A stretch of DNA of 9,082 bases from an uncultured Verrucomicrobiota bacterium (GTDB lineage: Bacteria; Verrucomicrobiota; Verrucomicrobiae; Opitutales; Opitutaceae), in assembly GCA_946481225.1 (NCBI GenBank), contig CAMLNJ010000088.1:1-9082 (forward strand), in the 5' to 3' direction. Both the position numbers and the translations under genes were made by a program. The notes beneath the pieces were generated by a model. The model searched no databases and was not told the DNA's origin. It saw nothing but the letters and a program-made list of their open reading frames with translations. This document shows positions 2,189 through 6,985 of the stretch, in pieces (the first letter of the stretch is position 1; each line of letters begins with the position of its first letter).

Positions 2189-3331
2189 ATGTCCGAAGCC
2201 GCCGAAAAAACCGCCCGTCCGCATTTGCTCGGGCTCACTCGCTCCGAACTCGCGGAGCGCGCGGTCGAGTGGGGCTTCGCGCGCGTGCATGCGGCGTCGC
2301 TTTGGAACGAGCTTTACCTGCAAGGGCGGCGCGCGCCCTCGGAGTTTGTTCCGCACGACCAGATGCCGGCGCGTTTTCTCGATCGCGTGTTCGCGGAGTG
2401 CGATTTCGATTTCCCGGTCGTGGCGCGCGAGACGCATTCGGCGGACGGGTTCACCCGGAAATATCTGCTCGGGCTCAAGGACGCGCACCGGATCGAGACG
2501 GTGTTGATGCGCTACAGCGGGCGCACGACGGCCTGCGTGAGCTCGCAGGTGGGCTGCGCGATGGGCTGCGTGTTTTGCGCGACGGGACAGATGGGCTACA
2601 CGCGCCACCTCACGGCGGCGGAGATCGTGGCGCAGGCGCTGCACGTGGATCGCGTGCTGCGCGCGACGGCGGAGTCGGATCCGCAGGCGGGCGGCGCCAC
2701 GCCCGCGCTGGCGGAGCCGGACCATGCCTCGCCGCACCATCGGCACGAGCGGCTGCGCAACATCGTGTTCATGGGCATGGGCGAGCCGCTGCACAATTAC
2801 GACGCGGTGATGCAGGCGATAGACATCCTGCGCGATTCGGCGGGGCTGGCGCTCGGCGCGCAAAAAATCTCGGTCTCGACCGTGGGCGTGGCGCCGGGCA
2901 TCCGGAGGCTCGCCGCGGAGCGACGGCCGGTGCATCTGGCGGTCTCGCTGCACGGGGCGACGCAGGAGGAGCGCGCGGCGCTCGTGCCGGCGGCGCGGAA
3001 GTGGAAACTCGACGAGCTGATGGACGCGTGCCGCGAATACACGGCGACGCTCGGGCGGCGGATCTTCTTCGAGTGGACTTTGATCGAAGGGAAAAACGAC
3101 GGCGCGGAGCACGCGCATGCGGTCGGGGCGCTGCTCAAGGGCATCCCGGCGCAGGTGAACCTGATTCCGTTGAACCCGACGGTCGGCTACGACGGCCAGC
3201 CGACGCGGCCGGCCGGGGCGCGCGGTTTTCAGGACGTGTTGGCCACCTATGGCATACCTTGCACGGTGCGCCAGCGGCGCGGCATCGACATCGCGGCGGG
3301 CTGCGGGCAGCTGGCGGTGGCGGAGCGGTGA
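2189..3331 (+). CDS. rlmN: Dual-specificity RNA methyltransferase RlmN
   Basis: Radical-SAM enzyme that makes 2-methyladenosine at A2503 of 23S rRNA and, in studied bacteria, at A37 of some tRNAs, in the cytoplasm. The 380-residue protein carries the 4Fe-4S motif CAMGCVFC (Cys123, 127, 130), the SAM-binding GMGEP at 196-200, and the two catalytic cysteines expected from E. coli RlmN: Cys116 (seven residues before the cluster) and Cys372 (GCGQL near the C-terminus). RRGIDIAAGCGQL at 363-375 is a typical RlmN ending. The N-terminal helical domain is present, so the protein looks complete and active. Compared with the E. coli enzyme it has about 20 extra residues at roughly 159-188, between the cluster and GMGEP, including a His-rich stretch. 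The upstream 60 bp show no Shine-Dalgarno sequence. It probably forms a pair with the DUF5069 gene before it. Confidence 0.96.
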   Translation: MSEAAEKTARPHLLGLTRSELAERAVEWGFARVHAASLWNELYLQGRRAPSEFVPHDQMPARFLDRVFAECDFDFPVVARETHSADGFTRKYLLGLKDAHRIETVLMRYSGRTTACVSSQVGCAMGCVFCATGQMGYTRHLTAAEIVAQALHVDRVLRATAESDPQAGGATPALAEPDHASPHHRHERLRNIVFMGMGEPLHNYDAVMQAIDILRDSAGLALGAQKISVSTVGVAPGIRRLAAERRPVHLAVSLHGATQEERAALVPAARKWKLDELMDACREYTATLGRRIFFEWTLIEGKNDGAEHAHAVGALLKGIPAQVNLIPLNPTVGYDGQPTRPAGARGFQDVLATYGIPCTVRQRRGIDIAAGCGQLAVAER

Positions 3332-4409: not shown

Positions 4410-4612
4410 GGTGCGGCGTCATTTCTGAACTGGAAGAAGCGACGCGACGGGCGCGGCGCTTGAACTAGATCATGTCGGGGCGACGATATTGCCCGGCCGC
4501 GGCCCCGGCCGGAACGGGGCGGGGCTCAGTCATGGGTGTCGGGGATTCCACTCCCGGCGCAAACCGGGGTTGCGGAGCGGCGAAAGGTTCCGCATGGGTT
4601 CCCGTTCACCGA
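4410..4612. promoter_or_regulatory. 203-bp divergent intergenic region upstream of miaB
   Basis: This region separates the minus-strand transglycosylase from miaB and should hold promoters for both. Seen directly: a 10-bp palindrome GGCCGCGGCC at 4495-4504 inside a very GC-rich patch, and a possible hairpin GCGGA (4572-4576) with TCCGC (4589-4593) just before miaB. A weak sigma70-like pair is TTGAAC at 4460-4465 with GATATT at 4485-4490; the 19-bp spacer is longer than ideal. The miaB frame is open through part of this region from an ATG at 4472, but that extension does not look like protein of the family. No small gene was recognised. Confidence 0.35.
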
Positions 4613-5980
4613 ATGAACCGCGTCTACATCAAGACCTACGGTTGCCAGATGAACGAGCGCGACAGCGAGGCTGTCGCGGCGATGCTGCGCGGCCGGGGCT
4701 ATCGTATCGTCCAGAGCGAGGACGACTGCGACATCATGCTTTTGAACACCTGCTCGGTGCGCGACGCGGCCGAGCAAAAGGCCTTGGGCAAGGCGGGTTA
4801 CGCCGCGCAGCGCAAGAAGCGCAACCCGGACTTCGTGCTCGGTATCCTCGGCTGCATGGCGCAGAATCGCGGCGCGGAGATTTTGGAGCGTTTGCCGGAC
4901 GTGGACCTCGTTATCGGCACGCAGAAGTTCCACCAGGTGCCGGGTTATCTGGATAACATCCGGGCGGCGCGCGAGGCGGGGCTGCCGGTGGGCAGCAGCA
5001 TCGTGGACATCGCGGAGGAGGCGGGGTCGCAAAACACGATTCGCGAGCACCTCGAGCCGGAGGTCGACGCGACGCCGCAGATAACGGCCTTTGTTTCGAT
5101 CCAGCAGGGCTGCAACATGGACTGCGCCTTCTGCATCGTGCCGAAGACGCGGGGCGACGAGCGCTCGCGGCCGATGGAGGACATCGTGGCGGAGTGCCGG
5201 GCGCTGGCGGCGCGCGGCGTGCGCGAGATCACGTTGCTCGGGCAGATCGTCACCTCCTACGGGCGGCGCGACTACACCCACACCGACGGCGTCTCGCCCT
5301 TCGTGCAGCTGCTCGAGAAGATCCATGAGATCGAGGGCATCGCGCGCATCCGGTTCACCTCGCCGCACCCGCGCGGCTTCAAGCAGGACCTCGTGGACGC
5401 CTACGCGCGCCTGCCGAAGCTGTGCCCCTACGTCCACCTGCCGCTGCAGAGCGGGAGCAACCGCATCCTGAAGGCGATGAACCGGCCGTATTCGCGGGAA
5501 CGTTACAAGGAGATCGTGGACGCGCTGCGCGCCTCGCGGCCGGGCATGTATTTTTCGACGGACGTGATCGTGGGTTTTCCCGGCGAGACCGAGGAGGAGT
5601 TTCTCCAGACGAAGGAGCTGTTTGAGGCCTGCGACTACGACATGGCCTACATCTTCAAGTATTCGATCCGCACGGGCACGCCGGCGGCGGAGCTGGGCGA
5701 CCAGATTCCCGACGAGGTGAAGGAGCGCCGCAACCAGGAGCTGCTCGAGGTGCTGAAGCGCAATTCGGAGCGCCGCACGGCGACGCTGGTCGGCACCGTC
5801 GAGGAAGTCCTTGTCGACGGGCCGGACAAGACCGGCGAGCGTTTCACGGGCCGCACGCCGGGCAACCGGGTGTGCGTGTTCGACGCGAATCCGCGGCTCG
5901 TCGGGCAGATCGTGCCGTTGAAGATCACGCGGGCGAGCGTGAGCACGCTGTATGGGGAGCTGGTCCTGGCGGGGGCGTAA
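4613..5980 (+). CDS. miaB: tRNA-2-methylthio-N6-dimethylallyladenosine synthase MiaB
   Basis: Radical-SAM methylthiotransferase that converts i6A37 to ms2i6A37 in tRNAs reading codons starting with U, which stabilises codon-anticodon pairing. The 455-residue protein has all three expected parts. The N-terminal methylthiotransferase domain carries cluster cysteines Cys11 (TYGCQMN), Cys47 (NTCSVRD) and Cys81 (LGCMAQ). The radical-SAM core has CNMDCAFC (Cys167, 171, 174), then KTRGDERSRP, LPLQSGS near 276 and GFPGET near 321. A C-terminal TRAM RNA-binding domain spans about 388-452. The start MNRVYIKTYGCQMN is the classic family start, so 4613 is preferred over the in-frame ATG at 4472. One variation is GQIVTSYG at 210-217 where many homologues have GQNVNSY. 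CNMDCAFCIVP and the TRAM domain favour MiaB over MtaB or RimO. It heads the plus-strand run ending in gmk. Confidence 0.95.
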   Translation: MNRVYIKTYGCQMNERDSEAVAAMLRGRGYRIVQSEDDCDIMLLNTCSVRDAAEQKALGKAGYAAQRKKRNPDFVLGILGCMAQNRGAEILERLPDVDLVIGTQKFHQVPGYLDNIRAAREAGLPVGSSIVDIAEEAGSQNTIREHLEPEVDATPQITAFVSIQQGCNMDCAFCIVPKTRGDERSRPMEDIVAECRALAARGVREITLLGQIVTSYGRRDYTHTDGVSPFVQLLEKIHEIEGIARIRFTSPHPRGFKQDLVDAYARLPKLCPYVHLPLQSGSNRILKAMNRPYSRERYKEIVDALRASRPGMYFSTDVIVGFPGETEEEFLQTKELFEACDYDMAYIFKYSIRTGTPAAELGDQIPDEVKERRNQELLEVLKRNSERRTATLVGTVEEVLVDGPDKTGERFTGRTPGNRVCVFDANPRLVGQIVPLKITRASVSTLYGELVLAGA

Positions 5981-5986
5981 TCGAGG

Positions 5987-6016
5987 AAATCTTTCTCTTT
6001 TTCTTAATCTTTCTCT
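5987..6016 (+). repeat. Left end repeats: two direct copies of AATCTTTCTCT
   Basis: AATCTTTCTCT occurs at 5988-5998 and again at 6006-6016, 18 bp apart start to start. Both copies are inverted relative to the AGAGAAAGA copies at the other end of the block. The tract from 5991 to 6048, up to the IVP start codon, is almost wholly C and T. Confidence 0.85.
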
Positions 6017-6049
6017 GTCTCCCCGTCCTTGTTTCCCGTTTTTTCCGCG

Positions 6050-6421
6050 ATGCGCCGCTCCTTTGATCACGAAAAGCTCAAGGCTTACAACGAGGCGGTG
6101 GCATTTGTCGGGTGGGCGGGGCCTTTGTTGGATGAGTTGCCGGCGAAGCTGGCGGCTCGAGATCAGCTTGATCGCGCGTCCACCAGCATCGTGTTGAACA
6201 TAGCCGAGGGTAACGGGAAGCGTTCGCATCCCGAGCGATGCCGCTTCTTTGACATCGCGCGCGGATCCACGGTCGAGTGCGCGGCCTGCCTGGATGTCCT
6301 GGTTGCCCGGAGAAAATTGGCCGCGGAAAAGGCCGAAGAAGGAAAGGGCAAGCTGGTCGAGGTCGTATCAATGATCGCCGGTTTAATCGCTCGGTTCTCG
6401 CCGGAAGGGGAGAAAGAGTAA
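6050..6421 (+). CDS. Four-helix-bundle protein, 23S rRNA intervening-sequence (S23/IVP) family
   Basis: A 123-residue protein of the family first seen encoded inside 23S rRNA intervening sequences (Leptospira, Coxiella) and structurally related to the Avd accessory protein of diversity-generating retroelements. These form four-helix bundles, often pentameric, with a basic surface; the cellular role of stand-alone members is unknown. Family signature: STSIVLNIAEGNGKRS (about 44-59), FFDIARGSTVE (66-76) and the helix ECAACLDVLVARRK after it. The length is typical. The ATG at 6050 was chosen because MRRSFDHEKLKAY matches the usual family start; an in-frame ATG at 6029 adds only seven residues. 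Here the gene is not in an rRNA gene; it lies between miaB and a membrane-protein gene. Inverted repeats surround it and the right repeat begins within its last codons. No reverse transcriptase is near. Confidence 0.9.
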   Translation: MRRSFDHEKLKAYNEAVAFVGWAGPLLDELPAKLAARDQLDRASTSIVLNIAEGNGKRSHPERCRFFDIARGSTVECAACLDVLVARRKLAAEKAEEGKGKLVEVVSMIAGLIARFSPEGEKE

Positions 6422-6446
6422 GAGAAAGAATTTTAGAGAAAGATTT
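6410..6446 (+). repeat. Right end repeats: three AGAAAGA copies
   Basis: The core AGAAAGA occurs at 6411-6417, 6423-6429 and 6437-6443; the second and third extend to AGAGAAAGA (6421-6429, 6435-6443). The first copy lies inside the last codons of the IVP gene, giving its Gly-Glu-Lys-Glu ending. The last copy plus TTT is the perfect inverse of the left end at 5987-5998. Confidence 0.85.
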
Positions 6447-6451
6447 TTCCC

Positions 6452-6985
6452 ATGTCCCTCTTCCTCGCCATCCTCCTGGTCGGCATCGCGTTTTTTGTCC
6501 TGGGCCTCGCGCTCATCGCCGACACCACGGTCGTGCGCTCGTCGCTGAAGGCCTTCCCGCGGTCGCAGGCGGCCGCCTACGTGCTCTTCGGCGGGGCTGC
6601 GGCCTGGTTTTTGTGCCGCGTGTCGGTGCTGTCGGAGGCGGATTTCGGCGAGTATCGCAACATCCTCTTCGTCGGCTTCGCGCTCGTGGCGGTGCTGTCG
6701 TTTTTCTATGTCGCCGAGTTTCTCGCGGTGCGCGGGCTGGCGGCGCTGATCCTTCTGTCGGCCGGGCCGTTGCTTTTCGCGGGCTACGGCAGCTATGGCA
6801 TCGCGCTGGTCTACAAGGTCGCGGTCTACCTCGCGCTGAGCGCGGCGCTTTGGCTGGGGGCCCAGCCCTGGCGGATGCGCGACGCGATCGCCTGGCTGCA
6901 ACGCGTGCCGGGCCGGGCGCGGTTCGTGGGCGCGGGCTTCGCGATCGCCGGCGCGGTCGTGGGCGGCACGGCGTTTTTGCTCTGA
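6452..6985 (+). CDS. Conserved-looking integral membrane protein, unknown function
   Basis: A 177-residue, strongly hydrophobic protein that I cannot assign to a named family. Six membrane segments are apparent at about 4-22, 39-55, 70-92, 94-111, 116-137 and 156-176, with short loops. The segment 1-2 loop carries Arg and Lys (VVRSSLKAFPR) and the 5-6 loop carries Arg (WRMRD, RVPGRAR), suggesting both face the cytoplasm. No catalytic motif is visible. The start is 5 bp after the right repeat of the IVP block, so the block supplies its entire immediate leader (AGAGAAAGATTTTTCCC before the ATG). The stop is 41 bp before the gmk start, so co-transcription with gmk is likely. GC-rich codon use matches the chromosome, unlike the IVP gene before it. 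Confidence 0.8.
   Translation: MSLFLAILLVGIAFFVLGLALIADTTVVRSSLKAFPRSQAAAYVLFGGAAAWFLCRVSVLSEADFGEYRNILFVGFALVAVLSFFYVAEFLAVRGLAALILLSAGPLLFAGYGSYGIALVYKVAVYLALSAALWLGAQPWRMRDAIAWLQRVPGRARFVGAGFAIAGAVVGGTAFLL

Follow-up and report, generated by a model that had tools for sequence, protein, structure and literature searches.

IVP proteins are annotated as 'four helix bundle protein', with their role unassigned, and have long been familiar from inserts within rRNA genes. The stretch of DNA analyzed here (the window; 9,082 nucleotides from an uncultured bacterium of the Opitutaceae) carries an IVP gene in a different setting, between two protein genes and enclosed by inverted repeats. It was originally predicted that this block might be a small mobile cassette of the same kind as the intervening sequences of 23S rRNA, living outside rRNA. 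The locus raises the question of what sort of unit this is, and whether it, or the class to which it belongs, moves.

The repeat-ended block beside miaB

The block extends from position 5987 to about 6448 and fills the gap between miaB, which ends at 5980, and a gene for a membrane-type protein, which starts at 6452. Its features and neighbors are as follows:

4472..5980, + strand: miaB, the upstream neighbor (TIGR01574, 460 bits against a cut-off of 355.3)
5987..6022, + strand: 5' arm, a hexamer array of TCTTTC type, starting 6 nt past the miaB stop codon
6050..6421, + strand: IVP gene (PF05635), 123 aa, predicted four-helix bundle (profile match and structure model), stop codon within the 3' arm
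6411..6448, − strand: 3' arm, mirroring the 5' arm in inverted orientation (repeat match, fold and lag self-match)
6452..6985, + strand: membrane-type protein of 177 aa, the downstream neighbor, which stays beside miaB in relatives

The original prediction described a perfect 12-bp inverted repeat, extra copies of its core at both ends and a single IVP/S23 gene in between without any transposase, and all of these were recovered. The repeat lies at 5987-5998 and 6435-6446, with the arms 436 nt apart. Four copies of TCTTTCTCT occur in the 9,082 bases, two per block end with the two ends in opposite orientation, compared with a mean of 0.04 and a maximum of 1 in 200 shuffles. The IVP frame, which runs from an ATG at 6050 to a TAA (6419-6421) falling in the 3' repeat, belongs to both PF05635 (E-value 8.8e-21, 74.6 bits, cut-off 33.8) and TIGR02436 (2.2e-18, 66.5 bits, cut-off 24). 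PF05635 was the sole domain detected by profile search in the one gene of the block, and no known transposase was found there. The 5' end is a hexamer array with a self-match of 0.67 at lag 6; regularity is lower at the 3' end, where the self-match is 0.47, 0.62 and 0.71 at lags 6, 12 and 14. In the predicted RNA fold, the ends close the whole block as a terminal stem (minimum free energy −199.5, mean of 100 shuffles −174.1, z −3.57). A search of the window against Rfam gave no RNA match, and the block sits between protein genes, outside rRNA. The 177-aa downstream protein had no match in a Pfam and NCBIfam profile search. A separate observation, made by eye, is an rlmN-like frame at 2189-3331 of the window, which places two radical-SAM RNA-modification genes close to each other.

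The structure model of the IVP protein is a confidently predicted four-helix bundle (pLDDT 93.2), which is most similar, among solved structures, to the IVPs 2gsc and 2rld (TM 0.73-0.82). Next nearest is Avd of diversity-generating retroelements, both free and within its ribonucleoprotein (8ub7 and 4dwl; TM 0.72-0.79 by query length among the matches listed, with ∼14% identity in the structural alignment). Profile search by sequence recovers only 2gsc and 2rld among solved structures. Across 57 sequences there is no variation at the positions of S46, N50, E53, G54 and S73 in the window protein. Phage records searched with this protein gave no match.

Complementary ends in the IVP family

IVP genes, a subset of all IVP matches, were gathered from Opitutaceae, other Verrucomicrobiota, the phylum of a planctomycete genome and cyanobacterial plasmids, and each 5' flank was compared with the 3' flanks, taken as reverse complements, of the same locus and of others, using thresholds chosen after a first look. 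In a first set of 91 copies, which includes fragments of one gene (L092, L109 and L168), the scores of 76 passed the 95th percentile of mismatched pairs and those of 58 also passed the 99th. A larger set started from 222 profile matches, representing 202 copies, 198 of them with both flanks; 25 of these, from genomes G089 and G101, were separated after inspection. Among the remaining 173 copies, inverted ends exceeded the 95th percentile in 138 and the 99th in 115, and 35 had no matching ends. By group, the test was passed by 76 of 92 copies in Opitutaceae and near relatives, 21 of 26 in other Verrucomicrobiota and Lentisphaerota, 2 of 3 in the planctomycete G028, 36 of 48 in the rest of its phylum and 3 of 4 on cyanobacterial plasmids. 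The feature is more general than the original prediction had assumed. In direct orientation, 29 of the 198 flank pairs exceeded the 99th percentile, 13 of which came from G089 and G101. The proposal that arm-negative IVPs are located in rRNA was rejected, as two tRNAs were all that emerged when 20 of the 35 loci without matching ends (G089 and G101 aside) were scanned.

None of the 25 IVP copies in G089 and G101 passed the inverted-end test. Loci L243-L262, L188 and L190 of these genomes represent a different, multi-copy kind of IVP (25 and 21 matches per genome), in which an inverted repeat was seen by eye ahead of the start codon, inverted arms are lacking and, in G101, direct repeats often lie on both sides. 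Two observations concern the cyanobacterial plasmids: in Picosynechococcus sp. PCC 7003 a type III-B CRISPR operon carries an IVP with a modest end score of 29 between its cas10 and cmr3 genes (L171), and in Calothrix brevissima NIES-22 the same stretch, bearing a phage-type integrase and an IVP, is found on both plasmids 1 and 2 of the one strain (L169 and L173).

IVP genes with complementary ends (IVP elements) have a median length of 473 nt. For 129 arms, the self-match was 0.58 (lag 7) and 0.56 (lag 14), compared with 0.25-0.33 at the remaining lags up to 16; the best lag was 7 in 92 arms, 8 in 20 and 6 in 9, the last including the window and its close kin. The units vary between clades and mirror each other within one element, with 84 distinct consensus words in 98 arms. 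Unit similarity climbs with IVP protein identity (rho 0.199 over 2,660 pairs without related flanks; none of 500 permutations as high). A strong heptamer common to all arms was rejected, the information being 2.91 versus 2.40 (largest 2.79) in letter shuffles, that is, weak at best.

The two arms of an element change together. The comparison covered 75 elements in 20 groups flanked on either side by homologous genes; in 45 of them (20 expected), the element's own 3' arm fitted the 5' arm better than any 3' arm of an ortholog, with median fits of 36 (own) and 22.6 (ortholog; Wilcoxon P=3e-12). Such joint change of both ends points to arm pairing, a shared reader or templated correction. In addition, DNA similarity with E-values below 1e-20 links 16 pairs of IVP elements whose loci are unrelated, and none of the 32 alignment ends passes an arm by more than 15 nt. 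In the nine longest alignments (at least 380 nt), no more than 5 nt separate 15 of the 18 ends from the end of an arm; these pairs are not independent, since eight of the nine involve five GTAGCG-type elements (L084, L154, L155, L162 and L237). The IVPs of L084, L154 and L155 are 85-92% identical, and by eye the neighbors look like gatA and gatB at L084 and pheS and pheT at L154. In these alignments the arms mark the edges of a unit.

Placement was analyzed for the 128 elements with both neighbors called (gene calls used frame length and third-position GC; 10 of the 138 positive elements were dropped for a short flank or for lack of a called frame). The elements occupy junctions within operons, directly behind a stop codon. 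The IVP was in sense orientation within a co-directional pair in 107 elements, antisense within such a pair in 8 and otherwise arranged in 13. The distance from the stop codon of the gene to the array had a median of 3 nt (quartiles −3 and 13; 133 distances), and the spacer left outside the element a median of 14.5 nt (114 elements), both taken without a comparison with random sites.

The miaB site in relatives and dispersed gene-less arrays

A MiaB scan yielded 80 loci. The analyzed set contains eight IVPs of the window's clade, all of them at the miaB junction, and a second IVP gene with AAATCTTTCTCT-type ends was not found at an unrelated locus among the fetched ones; the copies with the same ends that the original prediction had anticipated did not materialize there, other IVPs having the same architecture and other units. 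The empty sites it had anticipated do exist. In a site survey based on the 30 best of 144 family matches to the downstream gene (150 genomes), 28 loci had miaB adjoining: the IVP was present at 11 of these junctions, where the miaB stop and the following start are 486-575 nt apart, and absent at 17, where the distance is 13-115 nt. On a MiaB tree of 21 rows, IVP presence required three changes, below every one of 500 shuffles, and a single ancient gain followed by losses is a possible account of the distribution of this clade. Neither a target duplication nor a fresh insertion was seen, and occupied and empty junctions are too diverged for a duplication to be read.

Within the window's group, both ends are TCTTTC-like in the window and L003, and both are CGTTCT-like in L005. 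By eye, several IVP-less miaB junctions hold other arrays: inverted GTCGAGA-type arrays in L289 and L308, GTCACTC in L304 and TTTCAAC in L312 and L004. A one-sided array, GAGAACGGGAACGAATAGGAGAACGAG, was also observed directly before the membrane gene in the IVP-less L007 (6480-6520), where it is possibly a remnant of the window's element.

The dispersed feature of the window clade's unit is the gene-less array and not the IVP gene. With at most one mismatch, the window-clade end AATCGTTCTCGTTCTC matched 49, 6, 38, 32, 31, 45, 21, 37, 39 and 55 times in ten genomes whose miaB site is known to hold this IVP, as opposed to 3, 0, 1 and 0 times in four other genomes (exact P=0.001, the genomes being related), three of which (G034, G044 and G048) have no PF05635 match and one of which (G200) was judged by its empty miaB site alone. 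The reversed pattern had no match in any of the 14 genomes. Thirty places with AATCGTTCTCGTTCTC were fetched: 11 rows (9 distinct) were IVP-less inverted pairs, 2 had an IVP and 17 were single or unclear. Among the matches listed for G053, there were at least 11 plus/minus pairs, 47-98 nt apart. Gene-less copies cognate to a resident IVP are thus present for the window clade in ten relatives; for the GTAGCG unit the picture is mixed. Genomes with a GTAGCG-type IVP had 168, 58, 11, 5 and 2 GTAGCG matches; G050, G069 and G080 had 61, 29 and 20, with no GTAGCG-unit IVP among those fetched there; and G034 and G073, which have no IVP even at E 0.5, had 48 and 40. A rank test over 25 genomes weakly favored those with a GTAGCG-type IVP (P=0.022). 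Many of the GTAGCG copies in G073 are inverted pairs, and five retain GTAGCGAGCAT, the boundary that bears the IVP start in L084 and L155, which would suit deletion derivatives of a lost gene.

In G047, GTCNAGA arrays, the most frequent array type tested for that genome, occur at ten places, nine of which were inspected and seven of which are inverted pairs by eye; this unit is found at none of the five IVPs of that genome, each of which has ends of its own. In several genomes the backwards-read control for GTCNAGA outnumbered the forward pattern (26 matches versus 8 in G033, for instance), the backwards word being a repeat unit in its own right there. It should be noted that counts of arrays and IVPs are not independent, because the compared genomes are related.

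Strict period-7 arrays numbered 20 in 396 kb from 10 IVP-rich genomes and 2 in 340 kb from 10 IVP-free genomes (P=0.0002), the IVP-rich contigs being already known to carry IVPs save where the choice was made by genome. Other periods gave 8 versus 2 (period 6), 1 versus 0 (period 8) and 5 versus 1 (period 10); under one of four settings period 10 differed as well (10 versus 2, P=0.035). An inverted partner accompanied 11 of the 27 arrays in IVP-rich stretches, compared with 0 of 6 in IVP-free stretches; at least two of the 27 (L367 and L382) flank an IVP. As for the predicted mobile cassette akin to intervening sequences outside rRNA, the idea gains support for the class, with complementary ends in 138 of 173 copies, homology confined between them and IVP-less sites in relatives, but not, as worded, for this copy.

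Explanations and known systems

The reading that we favor, and regard as somewhat probable, is a pair of the REPIN/RAYT kind, in which a resident IVP is associated with dispersed cognate hairpin repeats and rRNA intervening sequences are a special case. In the window, the block would be the resident form of a repeat-ended element, the form that has the gene. The IVP protein, with its Avd-like predicted fold, might recognize, at the level of RNA or single-stranded DNA, the hairpin of its own arrays and promote the copying of this hairpin into new junctions, as a RAYT would for REPINs. Once the arms pair, RNase III may be able to remove the insert from transcripts, which is what has been reported for 23S intervening sequences, and the insertion would therefore be tolerated. 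That the IVP drives the spread of the repeats is what we infer. We count in favor of this explanation the matching of own ends, the lag-7 arms, the concerted change of arms, the tracking of protein by unit, the limits of homology and the sense bias, together with the window-clade end counts, the gene-less pairs, the period-7 excess in IVP-rich genomes and the Avd-like predicted fold. Against it we count the GTAGCG arrays in IVP-free G034 and G073, the GTCNAGA arrays in G047 without a cognate IVP, the backwards-word control, the 35 of 173 and all 25 G089/G101 copies that are arm-negative, the confinement of the window clade to one site, the failure to see either a target duplication or a fresh insertion, and the relatedness of the genomes.

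Another explanation, rather unlikely and still to be reckoned with, is that the hairpin arrays form an independent mobile family that relies on another enzyme for movement, with the IVP riding in their loop as a passenger. The plentiful arrays of G034 and G073 without any IVP and the GTCNAGA arrays of G047 would suit it. However, the array unit tracks the IVP clade, the window-clade unit tracks the presence of its IVP, and several gene-less G073 copies retain the boundary of an IVP start. Moreover, 71 of 112 IVP loci have such arrays, compared with 2 of 30 Y1 transposase loci, and Y1 genes are absent from G047, on which grounds a RAYT was also rejected as the mover.

We consider it improbable that nothing moves, the IVP being part of an operon, its mRNA ends pairing to regulate or protect, and its presence and absence reflecting old gain and loss. 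This would fit the single junction of the window clade, the sense orientation in 107 of 128 elements, the concerted arms and the strong fold, but homologous copies at unrelated loci stop at the arms, gene-less arrays are dispersed, and relatives show different array types at the same junction. Slightly less credence still is given to the idea that the arms match through replication slippage and template switching between inverted repeats, one arm being copied onto the other and the repeats being inert. Concerted arms would be expected from this, and mirrored order of variant units, another candidate that was rejected, reached the 5% level in 20 of 108 elements only, which also speaks for it; the link to IVP and not Y1 genes, the period of 7 and the homology stopping at the arms are left unexplained. 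Slippage and template switching may nevertheless act in combination with the other readings. Movement via an RNA copy, with a reverse transcriptase in trans and the IVP acting like Avd, is likewise improbable: the predicted Avd fold, the sense bias and the reported commonness of PF05635 near reverse transcriptases of diversity-generating retroelements (in passages of PMC10053308) speak for it, whereas PF00078 was found in 6 of 15 IVP-carrying genomes, being missing in 9 of 15, and in 3 of 10 IVP-free ones, which speaks against dependence on reverse transcriptase.

More broadly, and more tentatively than the pairing of a resident IVP with its repeats, IVP may represent a class of bacterial mobile systems consisting of a small hairpin-binding protein without a known catalytic domain and its own inverted arrays of 6-8-nt units, gene-bearing and gene-less, in which case rRNA intervening sequences would be copies that inserted into rRNA, and the heptanucleotide repeats would, at least in part, be gene-less descendants; we would put this at somewhat short of even. 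Two old puzzles, the spread of IVP-bearing intervening sequences and the origin of bacterial tandem heptamers, would then meet, and the cognate repeats would provide a concrete candidate ligand for the IVP family. Among the papers listed by searches of open-licence literature, none was recognized as connecting IVP genes with tandem-repeat ends outside rRNA.

With regard to known systems, the window block resembles an insertion sequence or DNA transposon in its terminal inverted repeats, which were demonstrated as the bounds of a unit in relatives and not for this copy, and differs in encoding no known transposase. Avd of diversity-generating retroelements is predicted to have the same fold as IVP, whereas IVP has no general reverse-transcriptase partner and shares only the low identity given above. 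Among bacterial tandem repeats, STRR heptanucleotide repeats were reportedly described by Mazel in 1990, and small dispersed repeats are said to have been treated by Elhai in 2008. Passages of two sources describe heptamer repeats in Xanthomonas and Nostoc (PMC4692102) and in Beggiatoaceae (PMC4679880), with ∼70 inverted pairs in each of two Xanthomonas genomes (PMC4692102, PMC4679880). Such repeats are like IVP arms in having a period of 7, in being intergenic and in lying near the upstream stop, and the terms IVP and S23 are absent from the heptamer accounts there. The window block has its best lag at 6 and lacks this period, which is found in 92 of the 129 arms of other IVP elements.

The intervening sequence in the 23S rRNA of Coxiella burnetii, as described in part of PMC4990558, is 428 nt long, with 5' tandem heptamers, a 28-bp stem, processing by RNase III and an IVP frame, and its authors discuss ideas of a mobile origin. 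Such 23S intervening sequences share with the window block an IVP frame flanked by complementary ends and a comparable total length. In contrast, the window block lies between protein genes, the units of IVP elements are clade-specific, and relatives hold gene-less dispersed copies. Finally, in REP/REPIN and RAYT systems, as outlined in passages of PMC3733652, repeats flank a resident gene and small palindromic, gene-less copies are spread between genes, as with IVP elements; IVP elements differ in having no Y1 transposase and in having arms that are tandem arrays of 6-8-nt units. By analogy, REP/RAYT would be the best functional parallel for IVP elements.
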